From positions 29,996-93,995 of the forward strand of contig NW_025777536.1 of the NCBI RefSeq assembly GCF_021130785.1: a stretch of DNA of 64,000 nt. The letters run 5' to 3'. Numbering within the stretch: the first letter of the stretch is position 1; each line of letters begins with the position of its first letter. The translations under genes were made by a program, and so were the position numbers. The notes under the pieces are model-generated. The model was not told the origin of the DNA. It ran no database searches and saw only the letters and a list, made by a program, of their open reading frames with translations. The stretch is from Homalodisca vitripennis. Lineage: Eukaryota; Arthropoda; Insecta; Hemiptera; Cicadellidae. Of the stretch, positions 22,070 through 35,162 are shown piece by piece.

Positions 22070-22073
22070 AGCG
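22070..22073. repeat. Target-site duplication AGCG, left copy
   Basis: AGCG immediately precedes the left LTR and is repeated at 35159-35162 immediately after the right LTR. A 4-bp duplication is normal for Ty3/gypsy integrase. Confidence 0.9.
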
Positions 22074-25000
22074 TGTAACGTTAGTTTTTAGTAGGGTGCA
22101 AAACTTCAACCGTTTTGTAGCCTACGCGGATAGTTGCAGTTAGCTGGGTATTTCCCAGGGGTCTGGAGAGTTGTGTATTTCGGATATAAAGTGTTGACTC
22201 AGAAAGCGAGTAGATCTCAAAAGATCTGTTAAAGTGGTTAGAGCCACAAGCTCATCATCGCCAACACTTTAAGGGGCAAAGAACCGATTTGATTTTAAAA
22301 TTACGTATACGGAAACAGAAACATGGTATACAAGTAACCAACCCACGCTCAATTGGTATTCCGTCACTGCGGGACAACCTAAGCTTACCCCACGAGAATT
22401 CAGTACAATCGGGTTATAAATCGCTAAATAAAATGATCGTAATAAGATGTGCAATCATTTAAGGCTATGTCTATATATTTATCTTAATAGCGACCGCTCG
22501 TATATCCCGCTTATGACAGCAGATCGTAAATTTAGGGAAACCTAAATTTATTTCAGACAAGACCGATTTTCACAGCAGTCCGAGAGCCTAATAATAAACG
22601 AAAATTTTTATTTAATCGAAAAAACAGTTTAATTTAATCGCGTTTAACCGTTATGAAACGCTTATGACAGCAGATCGGAAATTTAGGGAAACCTAAATTT
22701 ATTTTAGACAGGACCGATTTTCACAGCAGTCCGAGAGCCTAATAATAAACGAACATTTTATTTAATCGAAAAACAATTTAATTTAATTGCGTTTAATCGT
22801 TATGACCCGCTTGTGACAGCAGATCGTAAATTTAGGGAAACCTAGATTTATTTTAGACAGGACCGATTTTCACAGCAGTCCGAGAGCCTGACAATAAACG
22901 AAAGTTTTATTTAATCGAAAAAAACAATTTAATTTAATCGCGTTTAATCGTTATGACCCGCTTGTGACAGCAGATCGGAAATTTAGGGAAACCTAGATTT
23001 ATTTTAGACAGGACCGATTTTTCACAGCAGTCCGAGAGCCTAATAATAAACGAAAGTTTTATTTAATCGAAAAACAATCTAATTTAATCGCGTTTAATCG
23101 TTATGACCCGCTTGTGACAGCAGATCGGAAATTTAGGGAAACCTAGATTTATTTTAGACAGGACCGATTTTCACAGCAGTCCGAGAGCCTAATAATAAAC
23201 GAAAGTTTTATTTAATCGAAAAACAATCTAATTTAATCGCGTTTAATCGTTATGACCCGCTTGTGACAGCAGATCGGAAATTTAGGGAAACCTAAATTTA
23301 TTTTTAGACAGGACCGATTTTCACAGCAGTCCGAGAGCCTAATAATAAACGAAAGTTTTATTTAATCGAAAACAATTTAATTTAATCGCGTTTAATCGTT
23401 ATGACCCGCTTGTGACAGCAGATCGGAAATTTAGGGAAACCTAAATTTATTTTAGACAGGACCGATTTTCACAGCAGTCCGAGAGCCTAATAATAAACGA
23501 AAGTTTTATTTAATCGAAAAAACGATTTAATTTAATCGCGTTTAATCGTTATGACCCGCTTGTGACAGCAGATCGGAAATTTAGGGAAACCTAAATTTAT
23601 TTTAGACAGGACCGATTTTCACAGCAGTCCGAGAGCCTAATAATAAACGAAAGTTTTATTTAATCGAAAAACGATTTAATTTAATCGCGTTTAATCGTTA
23701 TGACCCGCTTGTGACAGCAGATCGGAAATTTTAGGGAAACCTAAATTTATTTTAGACAGGACCGATTTTCACAGCAGTCCGAGAGCCTAATAATAAACGA
23801 AAGTTTTATTTAATCGAAAACAATTTAATTTAATCGCGTTTAATCGTTATGACCCGCTCGTGACAGCAGATCGGAAATTTAGGGAAACCTAAATTTATTT
23901 TAGACATGGACCGATTTTCCACAGCAGTCCGAGAGCCTAATAATAAACGAAAGTTTTATTTAATCGAAAACAATTTAATTTAATCGCGTTTAATCGTTAT
24001 GACCCGCTTGTGACAGCAGATCGGAAATTTAGGGAAACCTAAATTTATTTTAGACAGGACCGATTTTCACAGCAGTCCGAGAGCCTAATAATAAACGAAA
24101 GTTTTATTTAATCGAAAAACGATTTAATTTAATCGCGTTTAATCGTTATGACCCGCTTGTGACAGCAGATCGGAAATTTAGGGAAACCTAAATTTATTTT
24201 AGACAGGACCGATTTTCACAGCAGTCCGAGAGCCTAATAATAAACGAAAGTTTTATTTAATCGAAAACAATTTAATTTAATCGCGTTTAATCGTTATGAC
24301 CCGCTTGTGACAGCAGATCGGAAATTTAGGGAAACCTAAATTTATTTTAGACAGGACCGATTTTCACAGCAGTCCGAGAGCCTAATAATAAACGAAAGTT
24401 TTATTTAATCGAAAACAATTTAATTTAATCGCGTTTAATCGTTATGACCCGCTTGTGACAGCAGATCGGAAATTTAGGGAAACCTAAATTTATTTTAGAC
24501 AGGACCCGATTTTCACAGCAGTCCGAGAGCCTAATAATAAACGAAAGTTTTTATTTAATCGAAAACAATTTAATTTAATCGCGTTTAATCGTTATGACCC
24601 GTTACTAATGGTGAAGATAACTAAATATTACTACAATATACTTAATTCTATATGCGTACAAATTCAATGAAAATATGCATGAAAATTCTTGCACATGCAG
24701 AGTGAAAAACGTGCAAAAGAAAAATTTACGTTAAATATTGCAAGCCAAGCTAAGCAAAACAAACAGAAATTTACTACAACTATTGCACCATGAATAATGA
24801 AATAACTAATTAAACTCGGAATAATAGTTACCTGTCAAATGAAATTGAAGTTGTCTGAAAATGTCCTCTGCTCGCTGTACTGTCCTTCACCTCGATAATC
24901 CACGCTTCTCCGTATCGAACCCCTCTCGCCGGCCCTCGCCAGTCCCTTTATCAGTCGACTACCGCGCTCTAGGTGGCGGCAGCTACAATCTTTAACAGCG

Positions 25001-25180
25001 CCCCCCGCGGATTCTACGGCAATCTCGTCCGCGACGGTAGCGCGCCGTGCGAGTTTTACTACAGCCCAGGACATTAAAACTATCTTCTCGCTTCCACTTG
25101 ATACAATTTAATGTAAAACAATATAGTATTTCACTGTTCTGACCCAAAAAAAAAAACACTTCAAAATTTGGGACCTTACA
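22074..25180 (-). repeat. 3' LTR (3.1 kb)
   Basis: On the minus strand it begins TGTAAGGTCCC next to the polypurine tract and ends CTAACGTTACA next to the AGCG duplication. It can be aligned end to end with 32046-35158. In the unique 5' and 3' portions the copies differ only by short indels (for example one G at about 22183 and one A in the run at about 22218). The central two thirds is a 14-unit tandem array. LTRs of most Ty3/gypsy elements are 0.2-1.5 kb, so this is unusually long. Confidence 0.95.
22508..24601. repeat. Tandem array inside the 3' LTR: 14 units of about 149 bp
   Basis: Units start (GACAGCAGATCG) at 22515, 22666, 22815, 22966, 23116, 23265, 23414, 23564, 23713, 23862, 24012, 24161, 24309 and 24457. 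Each unit contains a perfect 9-bp inverted repeat, AAATTTAGG-GAAA-CCTAAATTT, then CAGCAGTCCGAGAGCC, and several TTAATCG motifs. On the element's sense strand each unit includes AATAAA (in CGATTAAATAAAACTTTCG). The first two units are the most divergent and later ones nearly identical, typical of expansion from one end. Function unknown. Confidence 0.95.
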
Positions 25181-25190
25181 CCCCCCACTT
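25181..25190 (-). promoter_or_regulatory. Polypurine tract
   Basis: On the minus strand the sequence AAGTGGGGGG lies directly before the TGTAAGG start of the 3' LTR. This is the position and composition expected of the purine primer for plus-strand DNA synthesis. Confidence 0.88.
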
Positions 25191-25446
25191 AGTTCGGTCA
25201 AAAAAAAAGAAACGGAAAAAGAAAAAGAACTCTGTTTTACTCAAAAATGAACTTTCTTTTTACTTTAATAACATAAATAAAAACTTCTAAACTAAATAAG
25301 TATTCCTTCAGCTCCAAATTTAAACTTATTTCCTATAGTATGTTTTTGTCAACCTTGACAAATAACAAAAACAAAAGGTAACTAAAAATTTATCTTGCTT
25401 CTTCGCAATCAGAAAAACTTTATACGGATGCCTTCATCGCATCCTT

Positions 25447-26761
25447 TTAATGTAGGTACTTTACGTTTACCCTCTTGAACTTCCCATCTTCGGAATATAT
25501 TCTTATTCTCTTCGGGTGTCTCTTATTTCCTTTTACATTTTTCGGTCGCCTTTGTATTGCGTGTTTCACCGTCGTATTCTCCTCGCGGTGTGTTCCACTC
25601 TGTTTCAGGGACGAAGTCTCGGCTTCCATTTCAATACTCTTCCCTCGGTTCGATATCTTTCACCGTATCGTCTCCTCGTTCTTCGCACAGTCTTTCATCA
25701 ATCACTTCCCAAGAGTCCGAAGCCGCGATTGATAGACATGGAGAAACCGGCCTATCGGACTCGACTTTCATTTCTCTTTCATGGTCATTCGTCCGTTGGT
25801 TCCCTGGCTCCACGTCTTAGGTCCCTTACTGCCTCGTCGATAAGGGCAATGAGGTCATCCGTTGCTGCGGAATCTTCCTCCACGTCGACCTCCATCGGGG
25901 CCGGGTGAGACGGTCCAGGTCGATAAAAGAGGGCCGAACAGATCAACGTGCCGCATGGATGGATATCCGAGTTCGGCCGCTCGAAGCAGATCCTCCAGTA
26001 CTGGATCATTTACTGACCCACTCGCTTCTCCCTGGAGTGAGGTCGCTGTTTCTTTTGGGGAGAGGCTAGTTTGTCCTCGAACCGTAGGAAAACATATCCG
26101 CTATATCGCCCGGCTCGGCGTAACGAAAGTCCTCGACGCCAACACGCCCCGCTCGGAGGACCGAAGCGATGTTCTTCCGGATCGATTTTCCACTCGCTTT
26201 TTTTCCTTCTAATCGTGCCTTCCTTGACAGCACCTCCGCATACATACACACGAAGGCGCCGCAATCGTACGAGTTCTCTTGTCGAGGGATATCCTTGGGT
26301 GCGTCTACCGTTTTCCATGCCTCTACCTTCCGGTTCCTTCTCGTGGCCTCGTAATGTCAGGAAATCTCGCACTGTCCCTCTCTCCGCTTCGTTATTCCAT
26401 CCGCAAGAGTCGTTACGCGGTGATTGTATTTTTCTTCGACCATCACCACGATTAAGATCCAGTGTCCCCTGCTACCCACGGTCTGGGAGGTGTACGGGAA
26501 CGAATAACATATCGTTTTGAAAGATATCTTCTTTCTTAAACCGGTTTATTGACCGCCTGGTATCTTTTCTCCTTCCAGTCCTTGAAGAAGAACGTATCGA
26601 ACATATAGAATCGATGGAAGACACACTTTGTGGTACCAATTCCGTCTCTCTATAATTCGTAAGTAGGCCTCAATGACGACGTCGTTCATCAATGTGTCTT
26701 TCGCCGCTAAAACATCGATTTCGGTTTGGTTAACCGTGATTAGTTTTCTCAGACCCTTCAT
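25447..26761 (-). pseudogene. ORF3: C48-family (Ulp1/SENP-type) cysteine protease
   Basis: Starts at an ATG 42 nt after the pol stop. Residues 1-40 (KLITVNQTEIDVLAAKDTL then MNDVVIEAYLRIIE) match the Ulp1 entry region (L-ND-I-FYL). Downstream come FYMFDTFFFKDW and LFVPVHLP. The catalytic His follows in GHWILIVV (codon 26463-26465), Asp in NDSCGWNNE (26409-26411), the oxyanion Gln in IPRQENSYDCGAFVCMYAE (26279-26281) and the nucleophile Cys in the same block (26261-26263). These are the four active-site elements of SUMO-specific C48 proteases. After the domain, an acidic stretch (MEVDVEEDSAATDDLIALID) and a basic end (RRPKNVKGNKRHPKRIRIYS) close an ORF of about 430 codons. At least three or four frame changes interrupt it. 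By family knowledge it would cleave SUMO or a similar ubiquitin-like bond; the actual substrate is unknown. Confidence 0.82.
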
Positions 26762-26777
26762 TCTTAAACACAGGTAT

Positions 26778-26800
26778 TACCTGAAAGCCACACAAAACAA
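26778..26800 (-). promoter_or_regulatory. Candidate 3' splice acceptor for ORF3
   Basis: Between the pol stop (26804-26806) and the ORF3 ATG (26759-26761) the minus strand reads TTTTGTGTGGCTTTCAG with the AG at 26781-26782, a good pyrimidine-rich acceptor with the exon beginning 19 nt before the ATG. Insect errantiviruses express env from a spliced mRNA through an acceptor in this position. Here it would serve the protease ORF. Use of the site is inference. Confidence 0.5.
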
Positions 26801-26803
26801 GCA

Positions 26804-29800
26804 TCATGCAAAGCAGTTTACTAACCAGCTAGCCAGTACCTTCACCACCAGTAACATTAACGAATGAACGTTTTTTAAGTCTTTTACGTGGGCATTACTA
26901 TTTTTACCCGTGACCTCATCGGTTATACGGTATATGTTATAACCTACTTTAGAATCGATTTTAAAGGGTCCTATGTACTTTGGAGCTAATTTTGCGGCAA
27001 AAGCGTTAGCGGCTGAAGAAAGAGCGTGATTTCTTTTTTAGGACTCTATCGCCCACGTTATACGTTACTTCTCGTCGTCTTAAATTATATACCCTTGCTT
27101 GATTGTTATAAGCTTGCCCTTAGGTTCAGATGACATCTCTCGTAATAAACGTTGAAATCGATCATACCTTTCCTTATGGATATCGGCTGTTGAGAGGGGT
27201 CGTTTATCATTCCCTTCTTCGAAAAACCCGGATAGGGATTTCGGTGGCTTCAGCTCTCTGCCAAAGTTAAGCATAGCGGGAGTGAACTTTGTACTGCCAT
27301 GTACCGCTGTATTCATCGCGTATCTGAACTCTGAAATGTTCACGTCCCACTCTCGATGGTCATTCTTAACGTATTGGGCAATCATCGTTCCCAGCACGCG
27401 GTTATATCTCTCTCTACCGGGTTCGACTGAGGTGAAAAATGGAGCAGTATAATTGACCTCGATTCCCCAATCCTCAGCTAGTTCCTTAAAAATCTTCGAC
27501 GTGAATTGTGTTCCGTTGTCTACTATAAGTACCTCAGGTGATCCGTACCTAAGTAATATCAATTCCTTAAATTGATTGCATACTTGGCGAGCGTTGGCAA
27601 GTCTTATGGGTGCTATTTCTACCCATTTGCTAAAAACAGTCTTGGAAAACCACCGCATAAGTGTTACCTCTTTTGATCTAGGTAACGGCCCAATCAAATC
27701 CGCCGAAACTGCGAACCAAGGCCCCTTTGGTCGTCTAAATTTCATTATTCCGGCGGGTTTTCTTTTGTTCACTCTTGAATTTCTGCACGTCTCACATGAA
27801 GCGACATAATTTCGGACTTCTTGCCGCCATCTCGGCCAGTAGTATCTTTTCTGCAATTCGTTTGGCTGTCTTTCGATAGCCGAAGTGCCCAGCCGTTTCC
27901 TTATCATGAGTTTTCCTCAAGTACTCGATTTTTCTCCTCCTCGGGAACACACATCTTCCAATCCAAACTCTTCTGACGCCCCTCTCCTGGGCCTCTGTAG
28001 GGAATATATCTGTATAGTTTTCCTCCTCCTCTTATGGTAAAACCGAGGGAAACTACGGGGATTTTTCTTAACTTTGTGTATTAGGTTATCATACCATGAC
28101 ATTGGGAGATAGTCGCCGCAATTTGAATTACTTTCCTTCTCTGAGCTTTCTATTACAAACACCTTCAGAGAATGATCACTAACCTTCGTCGTTTTCGGTT
28201 GTTTGATCAGTCCTTTCAGGAGGGTTTTCTCGAAAGAGCATCGGCTACTCTATTTAAAGCACCTTTACGGTACTGGACTGAAAAATCGTGTTGCTGCAAC
28301 TCGAGGATCCAGCGGGCCAACCGACCGGTTGGTTGTTGTATCTTCATTAACCATTGCAGTGCTTGGTGATCGGTGATTGCGAGGAAATGGTACCCTTCGA
28401 TATAAGGTCTAAATTTTTTTACCGCCCATACCAAAGCTAAACAACTCTTGTTCAGTGACCGTAAACTTCTTTTCCCGTCCGTTAACAGTCTACTGGCATA
28501 CGCCCTATAACCACCTCTTTACCCTTTCGCTTCTGGCTCAAGGTGGCGCCTAACCCTATTTGAGACGCATCTACCTGTAGGACAAATTGTTCGCTGAAGT
28601 CTGGGCATGCTAGAATAGGGGTGTTTTGTTAGGCGGCGTTTCAGTTCGACGAAAGCCTCTTCATGAGTCGCTGTCCAATCCCACTTAACCGCTTTTCTCA
28701 GCAGTTTAGTAAGTGGCGCCGTCAGAGTCGCGAAACCTGATATGAATCGGCGATACCAACTCGCAAGACCCAAGAAGCTTCGGAGGTTTCTTATATTCCT
28801 CGGCGTTGGAAAGTCTAAGATAGCGGACACCTTATCTGGATCTGTGGATATTCCTTGATCGTTTATAACGTGTCCCAAATATTTTAAGCGTGTCTGGCAA
28901 AAACTTGCACTTCTCCGGGTTAAGCTTTAGGCCAGCTCGTCGAAGACGTTGAAATACTTCTCTCAGAGATTCTAAATGTTCCTTGAAATTCGATGAAATA
29001 ATAATCAAGTCATCTAGATAGGCGAAAGCTTTGGGTTCCAATTCCGGGCCTATTATGGTATCGAGAAGTCGTTTGAAACGTTGCTCCCGCTGAGTGCAAA
29101 CCAAACGGCATCCTCGTAAATTGGTAGAGTCCTTTTCCTGGTACTGTAAAAGCGGTTATGGCGCGACTTTCCTTCGATAAACCCACCTGCCAATACCCTG
29201 ATTTTAAGTCGAGCGTGGAAATAAATTTGGCTTCCTTGAGTTTTTCTAGGATAGAGTTGATTTGAGGTAGGGGATAAGCATCTTTCTCGGTTTTGCATTT
29301 ACCTTTCGGAAGTCCACACAAAACCTAAATTTTCCGGAAGGTTTCTTGACTAATACAAACTGGAGAACTCCAGGGACTATTCGATTTCTCGATTATCCCG
29401 TCCGCCAACATTGAATCAACTTCATCGTTGATCACTTTCTGCATTGCGGGGTTACGTGGATAAAATCTCTGTTTAATCGGTTCGTCGTTCTTTAATTTAA
29501 TCACATGTTCTACTATGTGGGGTAAGACCAGGGGAATCCTTAAACTCCGCTAATTCGTTTTCCAAAAACTCTCTAAGCTCCTCTTCTTCCTCCTCGCTTA
29601 GCGTGACAATAGCATTTATAGCTGTCCCCTCACAGTTATTTACGCCGTACTCTTCTCTGGAAATAGTTTTCTTTTTAAAGTCAATTAGTTTTTAATGGCG
29701 CTATTACGTCCATGCCTAAATAATCGGAGAAGTAAGACCTGAGACGTTAATCAACTTAAACGCGTGTTGTATGTTTTTCGATACTTCCTTCAAATTCGAT

Positions 29801-30125
29801 CCCTCTCCTTGCTTCGGTTTTTTGTCCCCATCGGCCATTTGAATCTGAAGTTTTTCAGTCGTAATCCGCGCTTCCTTTACTCATTAGCATATCATACGTT
29901 TGTATCGTTTACAAGGGAGATCATTGCCCCCGTGTCGACCAGGGCCCATACTAACATCCCACAGAACAATACGGGTACGTACGGTCTTATGTCTTTTATT
30001 CCCGAACTTCGGCAGGACAGGTTTTGTGGTGAATTCGGCTATATATTTTACCCACTGCTGCCATTCAGCGGAGGTTCTTAAATTCGTTTGCGGGGCTCCA
30101 GGTGACCTCCTTTCGCCTGAGCCCT
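26804..30125 (-). pseudogene. pol: pol: protease, reverse transcriptase, RNase H, integrase
   Basis: Retropepsin: ALVDTGAMISLVNDTNV near 29,900-29,950 and LGMD near 29,700. [26 protein letters not shown] and [16 protein letters not shown] (29,040-29,290), then the catalytic [10 protein letters not shown] (about 29,010) and the SFLGLASWYRRFI thumb region (about 28,760). RNase H: AITDHQALQWLM and VADALSRKPS (28,216-28,400). Integrase: zinc-binding THD, AGHFG and VASCETCRNS; the D,D35E core with SADLIGPLP, VDNGTQFTS and EPGRERYNR (exactly 35 residues between the second Asp and the Glu); and a C-terminal KYIGPFKI with HVKDLK. It ends at TGA 26804-26806. The longest clean frame is 27080-27907. Several +1/-1 shifts and stops occur in the protease/RT junction. 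The boundary with gag is approximate. Confidence 0.93.
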
Positions 30126-31936
30126 CACTCCGTTTCCCAAGTTGCATTTGCAATCCGTAGTTTTCTTATAAAACCAGGGGTCTTGCAAAAGTAACATTTT
30201 AGGGTTTTCGGGAAGCGACAATTCCTAAAAATGTGACCGGGTTTCTCACAGTTCCAACATACAAAACTAGAAGTATTCTTCGGGATAGTTGTGTTTCTCT
30301 GAGAGGCTATACTTTCTCTTCTTACAACTTTTTGTCCTTCCCTAGTATCCATTTCCGGCCTACCAGATACTTTATTTCGTCCTCTCAAACACTTTATTTT
30401 CTTCGTTATTTATTGATTTCCGAGGATGTTCCCGTTGATCTCGATTGGGATGTTCATTGTGTGATCTGAGTGTATCAGCCGCTGCCTTATTGGTGACATT
30501 TGAAACACCAAACGTTTTTAAATTCTTATTTTTGGGGCTATATGCGGTTTCAGGCACCAGGGACTGAGCTGGACCTGGCGGTGGCCGATATAAGTGAGTT
30601 TCTCGGATATACATCTCGTAGTGTTCTGCCGAAGAAATGAGTTCACTAATCGTTCGTATGTCTTTGCCTCTTTAAACTCAGCTTGTACTTCGGGTGCATA
30701 TTTGCATATAACCTATTCAAGCTTATCTACGGCGTCATACCGCCTCTTCGTCGCATCAACGTATTCAAGGCCACTACAAACGTCCTGATGGGTTCACTGT
30801 CACCTTGTGTTCTACGTTTTATTTCATCGTCCATGTTCGTCTTATAGCCTACCGGAAGGAAGTTTAGCTCGAAATCTTGACGAAAATCTTCAAAACTGTC
30901 CCAAAAACTCTCTATTATTTCGATACCACAGTAAAGCGGTACCCTTTAGCAATTCAGGGAGTGCTTTTATCAGATCGCCCCCGGATACATTATAAGCCTC
31001 CCATCAGCTCATCAAGTCTTTCAAGAAAAGAACACTGGATTTCGCTCTCCGTCGAAATGTAAATTCCACTTTCTAATTGTGTTGCATATCTCAGCGGAAT
31101 TGACATGCGGCTGTCGGGAAAGGTGCTCATCTCTCAATCTTTGATTTTCGTTAGAATAGTGCGTTACAATGCCGCCTAAGAGAATCGTGAGAAATCCCAG
31201 GTGCAATGTATTGACTTGTCGCCAGAGCTGGAAGTTTAAAAGCATCGGTATACACAGATCTTGTTGCGCCATCGTAAGGTGCATAACTCGCATAGTCGTG
31301 TCCAGTATCCCAGTTGGACTTGGCCTTACTCCGCGTCTTCAGTGAAAACTAAAAGCCTCTTTACTTCGTCGTCACTAGTATCGGGTGGAACCTCGAGTAT
31401 CTCCCTCAGGTTTAACTCTCGGCTTCTTTTATCAGTCTCTGCTTCACTGGTATTCGGCCCAACTGGGTCGTTGCCAAAGGATTCTCTTCCGCCTACAGCC
31501 TCATCTCGTCTGTCCGGCTGTGAGCGAAGAAACTGTACGAAAGATTTTCTTAGATAATCTGTCGTCCTACCCTCGGTGTCCAAGTCGTGTTTTAGCATTT
31601 CAGTTATTAACTGGGCTTTCGTGAGTCTGTATATCCACCCCACGACTGGATCTAAACTCAGAAGGGGGAATAACTAGTCGTGGAAAACGCCTTTGTTGTT
31701 TGGTCCTTCGAAGTCAACAGTGGCAAACCCAAATCTCGTTTTTCGATACCTTTAATTTGTGATTCGCTAGTATTTTCAGAGGAACTAGTAGTCACAATCG
31801 TAGGTATTTGTTTTTGGTGTTCTGAGTCTGTTGTTGACTTTTCGGGGCCTATTCGTGTTTCCAACCCTTTGGTAGAAACGTGCATTTGAGCGAAAAAGTA
31901 TTCGCACAGTCGCCAAAACCCCGTTGGTCGAAGCAT
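30126..31936 (-). pseudogene. gag: gag polyprotein
   Basis: The first ATG after the primer-binding site is at 31934-31936. A Ser/Thr-rich N-terminus is followed near 31,640 by GWIYRLTKAQLITEMLKHDL and a GRTTDYLR helix, a SAP-like motif found near the N-terminus of many insect Ty3/gypsy Gags. A capsid-like block near 31,000-31,090 reads ICNTIRKWNLHFDGE with a downstream leucine-rich stretch. Close to the 3' end (about 30,190-30,270) lies CWNCEKPGHIFRNC, a perfect CCHC zinc knuckle, and a second knuckle starting CYFCKTPGF that is lost in a frame change. Capsid and nucleocapsid roles follow from the family. Four or more indels break the frame, so it is called a pseudogene as assembled. Confidence 0.88.
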
Positions 31937-32024
31937 TTTATAAACACACTATCTCGCTAAACCTCTTACTAAAAGTTTATCTTTTACGTTCGAAGAATAT
32001 TACACTCGTACAATCACTATACCC

Positions 32025-32042
32025 GTCCCTGTTCGGGCGCCA
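32025..32042 (-). promoter_or_regulatory. Primer-binding site for tRNA-Lys3 (UUU)
   Basis: Three bases after the 5' LTR the minus strand reads TGGCGCCCGAACAGGGAC, 18 nt complementary to the 3' end of tRNA-Lys(UUU), the primer type also used by lentiviruses. The match to that well-known PBS is complete. Confidence 0.93.
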
Positions 32043-32045
32043 TTT

Positions 32046-35000
32046 TGTAACGTTAGTTTTTAGTAGGGTGCAAAACTTCAACCGTTTTGTAGCCTACGCG
32101 GATAGTTGCAGTTAGCTGGGTATTTCCCAGGGGTCTGAGAGTTGTGTATTTCGGATATAAAGTGTTGACTCAGAAAGCGAGTAGATCTCAAAAAGATCTG
32201 TTAAAGTGGTTAGAGCCACAAGCTCATCATCGCCACACTTTAAGGGGCAAAGAACCGATTTGATTTTAAAATTACGTATACGGAAACAGAAAACATGGTA
32301 TACAAGTAACCAACCCACGCTCAATTGGTATTCCGTCACTGCGGGACAACCTAAGCTTACCCCACGAGAATTCAGTACAATCGGGTTTATAAATCGCTAA
32401 ATAAAATGATCGTAATAAGATGTGCAATCATTTAAGGCTATGTCTATATATTTATCTTAATAGCGACCGCTCGTATATCCCGCTTATGACAGGCAGATCG
32501 TAAATTTAGGGAAACCTAAATTTATTTCAGACAAGACCGATTTTCACAGCAGTCCGAGAGCCTAATAATAAACGAAAATTTTATTTAATCGAAAAACAGT
32601 TTAATTTAATCGCGTTTTAACCGTTATGAAACGCTTATGACAGCAGATCGGAAATTTAGGGAAACCTAAATTTATTTTAGACAGGACCGATTTCACACAG
32701 CAGTCCGAGAGCCTAATAATAAACGAACATTTTATTTAATCGAAAAACAATTTAATTTAATTGCGTTTAATCGTTATGATCCCGCTTGTGACAGCAGATC
32801 GTAAATTTAGGGAAACCTAGATTTATTTTTAGACAGGACCGATTTTCACAGCAGTCCGAGAGCCTGACAATAAACGAAAGTTTTATTTAATCGAAAAAAA
32901 AACAATTTAATTTAATCGCGTTTAATCGTTATGACCCGCTTGTGACAGCAGATCGGAAATTTAGGGAAACCTAGATTTATTTTAGACAGGACCGATTTTC
33001 ACAGCAGTCCGAGAGCCTAATAATAAAACGAAAGTTTTATTTAATCGAAAAACAATCTAATTTAATCGCGTTTAATCGTTATGACCCGCTTGTGACAGCA
33101 GATCGGAAATTTAGGGAAACCTAGATTTTATTTTAGACAGGACCGATTTTCACAGCAGTCCGAGAGCCTAATAATAAACGAAAGTTTTATTTAATCGAAA
33201 AACAATCTAATTTAATCGCGTTTAATCGTTATGACCCGCTTGTGACAGCAGATCGGAAATTTAGGGAAACCTAAATTTATTTTAGACAGGACCGATTTTC
33301 ACAGCAGTCCGAGAGCCTAATAATAAACGAAAGTTTTATTTAATCGAAAACAATTTAATTTAATCGCGTTTAATCGTTATGACCCGCTTGTGACAGCAGA
33401 TCGGAAATTTAGGGAAACCTAAATTATTTTAGACAGGACCGATTTTCACAGCAGTCCGAGAGCCTAATAATAAACGACAAGTTTTATTTAATCGAAAAAC
33501 GATTTAATTTAATCGCGTTTAATCGTTATGACCCGCTTGTGACAGCAGATCGGAAATTTAGGGAAACCTAAATTTATTTTAGACAGGACCGATTTTCACA
33601 GCAGTCCGAGAGCCTAATAATAAACGAAAGTTTTATTTAATCGAAAAACGATTTAATTTAATCGCGTTTAATCGTTATGACCCGCTTGTGACAGCAGATC
33701 GGAAATTTAGGGAAACCTAAATTTATTTTAGACAGGACCGATTTTCACAGCAGTCCGAGAGCCTAATAATAAACGAAAGTTTTATTTAATCGAAACAATT
33801 TAATTTAATCGCGTTTAATCGTTATGACCCGCTCGTGACAGCAGATCGGAAATTTAGGGAAACCTAAATTTATTTTAGACATGGACCGATTTTCACAGCA
33901 GTCCGAGAGCCTAATAATAAACGAAAGTTTTATTTAATCGAAAACAATTTAATTTAATCGCGTTTAATCGTTATGACCCGCTTGTGACAGCAGATCGGAA
34001 ATTTAGGGAAACTAAATTTATTTTAGACAGGACCGATTTTCACAGCAGTCCGAGAGCCTAATAATAAACGAAAGTTTTATTTAATCGAAAAACGATTTAA
34101 TTTAATCGCGTTTAAATCGTTATGACCCGCTTGTGACAGCAGATCGGAAATTTAGGGAAACCTTAAATTTATTTTAGACAGGACCGATTTTCACAGCAGT
34201 CCGAGAGCCTAATAATAAACGAAAGTTTTATTTAATCGAAAACAATTTAATTTAATCGCGTTTAATCGTTATGACCCGCTTGTGACAGCAGATCGGAAAT
34301 TTAGGGAAACCTAAATTTATTTTAGACAGGACCGATTTTCACAGCAGTCCGAGAGCCTAATAATAAACGAAAGTTTTATTTAATCGAAAACAATTTAATT
34401 TAATCGCGTTTAATCGTTATGACCCGCTTGTGACAGCAGATCGGAAATTTAGGGAAACCTAAAATTTATTTTAGACAGGACCGATTTTCACAGCAGTCCG
34501 AGAGCCTAATAATAAACGAAAGTTTTATTTAATCGAAAACAATTTAATTTAATCGCGTTTAATCGTTATGACCCGTTACTAATGGTGAAGATAACTAAAT
34601 ATTACTACAATATACTTAATTCTATATGCGTACAAATTCAATGAAAATATGCATGAAAATTCTTGCACATGCAGAGTGAAAAACGTGCAAAGAAAATTTA
34701 CGTTAAATATTGCAAAGCCAAGCTAAGCAAAACAAACAGAAATTTACTACAACTATTGCACCATGAATAATGAAATAACTAATTAAACTCGGAATAATAG
34801 TTACCTGTCAAATGAAATTGAAGTTGTCTGAAAATGTCCTCTGCTCGCTGTACTGTCCTTCACCTCGATAATCACGCTTCTCCGTATCGAACCCCTCTCG
34901 CCGGCCCTCGCCAGTCCCTTTATCAGTCGACTACCGCGCTCTAGGTGGCGGCAGCTACAATCTTTAACAGCGCCCCCCCGCGGATTCTACGGCAATCTCG

Positions 35001-35158
35001 TCCGCGACGGTAGCGCGCCGTGCGAGTTTTACTACAGCCAGGACATTAAAACTATCTTCTCGCTTCCACTTGATACAATTTTAATGTAATGTAAAACAAT
35101 ATAGTATTTCACTGTTCTGAACCCAAAAAAAAAACACTTCAAAATTTGGGACCTTACA
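32046..35158 (-). repeat. 5' LTR (3.1 kb)
   Basis: Directly repeats 22074-25180. On the minus strand it opens TGTAAGGTCCC, passes through a GC-rich segment (about 34,850-35,040) that contrasts with the AT-rich rest, then the 14-unit array, and ends CTAACGTTACA. The GC-rich block probably holds the promoter and transcription start, and is followed by CAGGTAACT (about 34,800), a candidate 5' splice donor. Differences from the 3' LTR in unique sequence are indels only, including a 5-bp ATGTA gain near 35,088. Confidence 0.95.
32480..34575. repeat. Tandem array inside the 5' LTR: 14 units of about 149 bp
   Basis: Unit starts at 32488, 32639, 32790, 32944, 33094, 33244, 33392, 33541, 33690, 33837, 33986, 34135, 34284 and 34432. 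Unit number and order match the other LTR. Unit 2 in both is preceded by TTATGAAACG. Unit 10 in both carries GCTCGTGAC and ACATGGACC. The arrays were therefore copied as a block during reverse transcription and have not expanded or contracted since insertion. Confidence 0.95.
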
Positions 35159-35162
35159 AGCG
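35159..35162. repeat. Target-site duplication AGCG, right copy
   Basis: Matches AGCG at 22070-22073; the adjoining base differs on each side, so the duplication is exactly 4 bp. Confidence 0.9.

Follow-up and report, generated by a model that had tools for sequence, protein, structure and literature searches.

We identified a Ty3/Gypsy long terminal repeat (LTR) retrotransposon in the insect Homalodisca vitripennis that carries, in the env position, a separate open reading frame (ORF) for a C48 (Ulp1/SENP-like) protease. The element occupies positions 22074-35158 on the minus strand of the window, by which we mean the whole 64,000-nucleotide stretch analysed here (RefSeq assembly GCF_021130785.1, contig NW_025777536.1, positions 29,996 to 93,995 of the forward strand). 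A sequence-only reading of this DNA had proposed a C48 ORF behind the integrase tail of such an element, and the arrangement is borne out by the window and by intact genomic copies. The third ORF encodes a predicted deSUMOylating C48 protease, as judged from its sequence and a structural model. Seven or more diverged Gypsy lineages carry it, seven of them here called A (the window family) to G, and it is thus not the SENP retrocopy of a single insertion that had been named as the alternative.

The assignment to Ty3/Gypsy is based on several features of the window copy. Its 3.1-kb LTRs start with TG, end with CA and are flanked on both sides by AGCG; they differ from each other by 3 mismatches and 36 gap openings in 3131 alignment columns. 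A tRNA primer binding site, which we take to be of the tRNA-Lys(UUU) type, and a polypurine tract are both present, and pieces of gag, reverse transcriptase (RT), RNase H and integrase are arranged as is usual for Gypsy elements; the tail of the integrase contains GPF. The aspartic protease could not be located in the frame-broken window copy; in a 1106-aa pol frame of lineage C, four Pfam domains are found in the order protease, RT, RNase H and integrase. The ORF in the env position matches C48 only, and the envelope glycoprotein that defines an Errantivirus was not found there.

The C48 match, for which a profile search had been suggested, is strong in intact copies of the window family, where it covers residues 24-197 (E 9e-25 and 3.7e-25). 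Scores against Pfam PF02902 reach 88.2 and 89.5 bits in lineage A and 62-83 bits in lineages B-G (cut-off 20.7). The catalytic H-D-Q-C residues are kept in all seven lineages; Q precedes C by six residues in A-E and G, and by seven in F and in two outside proteins, P0020 and P0022. The element proteins resemble SENP1/2 in sequence, and the predicted fold of a lineage G core model is SENP-like; this model was used in place of one for the deposited protein P0004, which was poor (mean pLDDT, the predicted local distance difference test score, 42.3; top match SENP2) and was set aside. A chance resemblance to C48 can be ruled out from these Pfam, sequence and structure matches.

In the window itself, the motifs named by the sequence-only reading can all be found on the minus strand, namely MNDVVIEAYLRII (frame 26546-26776), GHWILIVV (26357-26545), NDSCGW (26010-26471) and IPRQENSYDCGAFV (26066-26356). 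They sit in different reading frames, so this copy is frame-broken. When its pieces were searched one by one, a 96-aa piece with the Q and C matched Peptidase_C48 (E 2.2e-8, 34.6 bits, cut-off 20.7), the piece at 26472-26669 gave a sub-threshold match (E 0.016, 15.5 bits), and the pieces with the entry motif, HW and DSCGW gave none. The span first assigned, 25447..26783, had the correct position 25447 and ran 22 bases too far at its other end; the ORF extends from a start codon at 26761-26759 to a stop codon at 25449-25447. Aligned to the intact copy L026, the C48 region of the window (1330 columns) has a single substitution and 12 gap openings, and pol (2901 columns) has no substitution and 28 gap openings; between the intact copies L026 and L027, 6497 columns contain 6 substitutions and 3 gap openings. 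Because there are many indels and very few substitutions, we suspect an error in the contig, and decay is an unlikely cause of the frame breaks, given that the differences from intact copies are nearly all indels. The contig may be poorly polished, and other frame breaks in the window need the same caution. A 438-codon open frame is present in 7 of 19 genomic matches at 95-100% identity (window included); genomic copies were used unedited in the searches for intact proteins. The features of the element are collected in Table 1.

Table 1. Features of the C48-bearing retrotransposon and its flanks (window coordinates).
Feature	Position	Strand	Basis
Left target site duplication, AGCG	22070..22073		sequence
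3' LTR, TG...CA	22074..25180	-	alignment with 5' LTR
149-bp tandem array, 14 copies, within 3' LTR	22506..24601	-	repeat analysis
Polypurine tract AAGTGGGGGG, adjoining 3' LTR	25181..25190	-	sequence; assigned by position
Third ORF: C48 core, acidic tail and basic C-terminus, indel-broken	25447..26761	-	window pieces and intact copies
Basic C-terminal segment, approximate	25450..25585	-	
CLSI motif in tail, possibly SUMO-interacting	25727..25738	-	
C48 catalytic core, inner boundary approximate	26130..26761	-	Pfam matches
Integrase C-terminal tail with GPF	26804..27037	-	ORF pieces and Pfam
Fragments of integrase (zinc finger and core)	27080..28031	-	ORF pieces and Pfam
RNase H piece	28216..28518	-	
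Reverse transcriptase pieces	28519..29549	-	
gag pieces, CCHC knuckles near 30125-30409	30125..31948	-	
Primer binding site TGGCGCCCGAACAGGGAC, adjoining 5' LTR	32025..32042	-	sequence
5' LTR	32046..35158	-	alignment with 3' LTR
149-bp tandem array, 14 copies, within 5' LTR	32479..34575	-	repeat analysis
Right target site duplication, AGCG	35159..35162		sequence

The C48 ORF is found behind integrase throughout the genome. A search with the 96-aa window piece returned at least 105 matches at E <= 0.001 (best 150 of 299 candidates scored), as did one with the cellular-like SENP P0003 (at least 105; best 105 of 476 candidates scored), many of whose matches are intronless, 400-498 aa long and members of multi-copy families. 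We examined 45 loci (L009-L053) from lineages A-G; the C48 proteins of these lineages are 23-33% identical to the reference row. The N-terminal RT piece (29325-29549) served as a query in searches of locus context. Among the 22 loci of lineages A-C listed in full, integrase and its tail lie upstream of C48 in every case and RT in 21 (not L019). Of ten further loci, L042-L051, eight have integrase upstream; L042 retains the integrase tail only, and L045 has neither integrase nor tail. In lineage E, the integrase match ends 295-769 bases upstream, mostly 305, for 35 of 39 selected C48 matches. Where the distance was measured, the C48 ORF begins 95-289 bases past the pol frame, which is broken in the lineage F copy. 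LTR arrays bracket the C48 match in at least 16 family A elements, the window's included, when two match lists were compared by hand. The 149-bp unit is also present at other family A LTRs among the matches listed. By eye, a conserved splice acceptor before the C48 ORF, as for env mRNAs, seems plausible in some lineages. This multi-copy occurrence behind integrase across lineages rules out a single host retrocopy. A host SENP donor, which the sequence-only reading had proposed to look for, could not be told apart, as the single-protein probe mostly matched multi-copy element ORFs.

Trees of the C48 core and of integrase have one informative split in common, which separates lineages D and F from A, B, C, E and G with moderate support (84/86 for the C48 core and 86/94 for integrase). 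The C48 tree also groups lineages B and G (87/92), a pair that the integrase tree does not recover; there, A, B, C, E and G are left unresolved. In the C48 tree, the element proteins stand apart from five cellular rows (80/83). The simplest reading of these sequence comparisons would be a single capture before the D+F split; a second capture in lineage D is also possible, since the split between element and cellular proteins has support of only 80/83. The outside proteins P0020 (375 aa) and P0022 (518 aa) can be aligned collinearly with lineage G (37-42% identity) all the way from the core to the C-terminal end, with SPCL[ST]L and the basic tail in common, and may also lie in Gypsy elements. 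One scan of viral contigs found no relative.

Behind the core, each protein has a tail of approximately 200-320 further residues. In all nine proteins compared (A-G, P0020 and P0022), the last 45 residues carry a net charge of +8 to +16 and the remainder of the tail one of -2 to -36. The pattern [VICW]L[ST][IL], picked after the sequences had been inspected, can be found in eight of the nine tails (it is absent in F); when the tails are shuffled, the probability of its occurrence is between 0.02 and 0.09 per protein. It may be a SUMO-interacting motif. The lineage G model has a C-terminal beta hairpin with block means of 73-78.

There are signs of purifying selection on the C48 ORF in pairs of copies that have diverged enough to tell, as far as substitution rates at synonymous (dS) and non-synonymous (dN) sites can indicate. 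The lineage E core (L043/L050) has a dS of 0.223 and a dN of 0.028; the lineage C pair (L014/L019) has a dS of 0.189 and a dN of 0.062 over the whole ORF and 0.244 and 0.074 in the core; the values for lineage B are 0.026 and 0.0055. Pairs with L051 were left out, and the ratios also include selection in the ancestors of the copies. In the comparison of dN/dS among copies that the sequence-only reading had called for, the ratios were 0.13 and 0.33 where measurable, and recent copies taken alone showed no clear purifying selection. Broken family A copies (L023, L024 and L038) have ratios of about 0.6-0.75, as decay or error would give.

We favour, at a probability of roughly 45%, the reading that the C48 ORF strips SUMO from silencing factors at the element's transcripts or chromatin and thereby keeps the element expressed. 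The element-made protease would probably remove SUMO, to judge from its sequence and modelled fold, and its tail, with an acidic part, the LS[IL] motif and a basic end, could tether it to targets that are SUMOylated or are bound to nucleic acid or Gag. These targets may be SUMO-dependent silencers, for example those of the Drosophila Piwi-Panoramix-Su(var)2-10 pathway. Passages of the cited sources report that Piwi transposon silencing in flies includes SUMO-dependent steps (PMC13195609, PMC7272611), that silencing by Panoramix (Panx) in fly ovarian cells requires its SUMOylation, and that cleavable SUMO on a Panx fusion is removed by endogenous proteases (PMC13195609). A deSUMOylase held near element RNA or DNA by its basic tail would oppose such Panx silencing. 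Our more tentative proposal for the clade as a whole is that it may have swapped its env slot for a counter-silencing SUMO protease that erases SUMO marks of the PIWI-interacting RNA (piRNA) and heterochromatin pathway, is steered by a SUMO- and nucleic-acid-binding tail riding with Gag, and has diversified into seven or more lineages within a single insect genome as well as outside it.

Several observations weigh against the counter-silencing reading. The strongest argument that individual copies can do without the core comes from derivatives of lineage G, where 27 tail-only rows start at residue 204-211 and end at 446-448, with no core row nearby, and outnumber full copies among the matches listed; the core is therefore not needed in every copy. 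The shared left boundary suggests a single founder for these derivatives. The junction was read in two of them. In L052 (677-3859), gag-protease runs in frame into the C48 tail to form one 1061-aa frame, with RT, integrase and the C48 core gone; L053 shares this junction, its gag frames being broken, and the two tails differ with a dS of 0.170 and a dN of 0.053. The protease core can thus be missing while the tail stays with Gag, which fits an enzyme supplied in trans together with a role of the tail in cis. Furthermore, none of the nine element proteins has the first tryptophan of the cellular WLND motif, a residue that helps to clamp the SUMO diglycine, so their substrate may differ. In very young pairs (A, C, D and G), non-synonymous changes equal or exceed synonymous ones, which is either uninformative or adverse. 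A shuffle test for splice acceptors gave p values of 0.022, 0.277, 0.260, 0.467, 0.281, 0.079 and 1.0 for lineages A-G, respectively (Fisher 0.079).

The principal alternative is that the protease works on proteins of the element itself and deSUMOylates Gag or integrase at the stage of assembly, nuclear entry or integration; its tail would then bind Gag or genomic RNA. The tails joined to gag-protease in L052 and L053, with the dS and dN given above, speak for it, as do the constant company of integrase and C48 across lineages and the loss of RT-integrase, wholly or largely, in two of the four lineage D copies examined (L042 and L045), both of which keep gag and an open C48 frame. The fusions have no protease core, however, and so are evidence chiefly for the tail and less for the enzyme; we consider this explanation somewhat unlikely. 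That the core has drifted from SUMO and acts on another ubiquitin-like tag, or on a viral or host polyprotein, seems improbable to us; the lost WLND tryptophan would fit it, and PDB relatives with the C48 fold include enzymes that act on ubiquitin or NEDD8 and others that process viral proteins. A passenger ORF, in which a captured host SENP fragment has no role, could account for recent copies taken alone and is very improbable given that the catalytic residues persist over seven lineages at about 23-33% identity, that dN/dS is low in the measurable pairs, and that the outside relatives are collinear up to their last residues.

If the counter-silencing reading is correct, a conserved retroelement deSUMOylase would be a direct counter-measure to SUMO-dependent silencing, and the resulting arms race could be tested with one enzyme and a reporter. 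The element ORFs also match deposited H. vitripennis proteins at 96% (P0001) and 98% (P0013). P0004, P0005, P0006 and P0012-P0017, which are named 'SUMO1 sentrin specific peptidase 1' or 'Sentrin-specific protease 2', match transposon ORFs (P0004, P0005, P0012 and P0013 were compared with lineages C, D and G by eye or search). As several SENP-named proteins are transposon ORFs, counts of host SENP genes for this species may be inflated.

A literature search on Ulp1, C48 and SENP in transposons returned no C48-bearing LTR retrotransposon among the matches listed; most subscription journals were outside its scope, and a prior description is possible. To our knowledge, Repbase Reports was also outside that scope. 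LTR retrotransposons would join the transposon classes that bear C48 domains. With SENP1 and SENP2 the element proteins share the catalytic core, H-D-Q-C and the predicted fold; they differ in the absent WLND tryptophan, in their acidic and basic tail, and in being mobile and multi-copy. Mutator-like elements likewise carry and multiply an Ulp1 domain, but are described in the cited passages as DNA transposons, mostly of plants and also of hydra and lancelet (PMC2836005). Oomycete Cryptons bear a C48 peptidase, sometimes as an additional protein, and, in the section cited, are tyrosine-recombinase DNA transposons with neither gag nor RT (PMC3212892). The NeSL/Utopia retrotransposons of nematodes have an Ulp1-like cysteine protease domain, which the relevant passages place at the N-terminus of the RT protein of a non-LTR element (PMC4640811), whereas the window element has LTRs and a separate C48 ORF downstream of integrase. 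Ginger1 combines a Gypsy-type integrase and GPY/F with a downstream Ulp1 domain in some families; according to the passages cited for Mutator-like elements, it moves by cut-and-paste, has terminal inverted repeats and encodes a single transposase protein (PMC2836005). The elements described here have LTRs, gag, RT and a separate C48 ORF, and neither terminal inverted repeats nor an Ulp1 domain fused to a transposase was found in the window element or the measured copies. It is conceivable that Gypsy elements with C48 behind integrase were the source of Ginger1.
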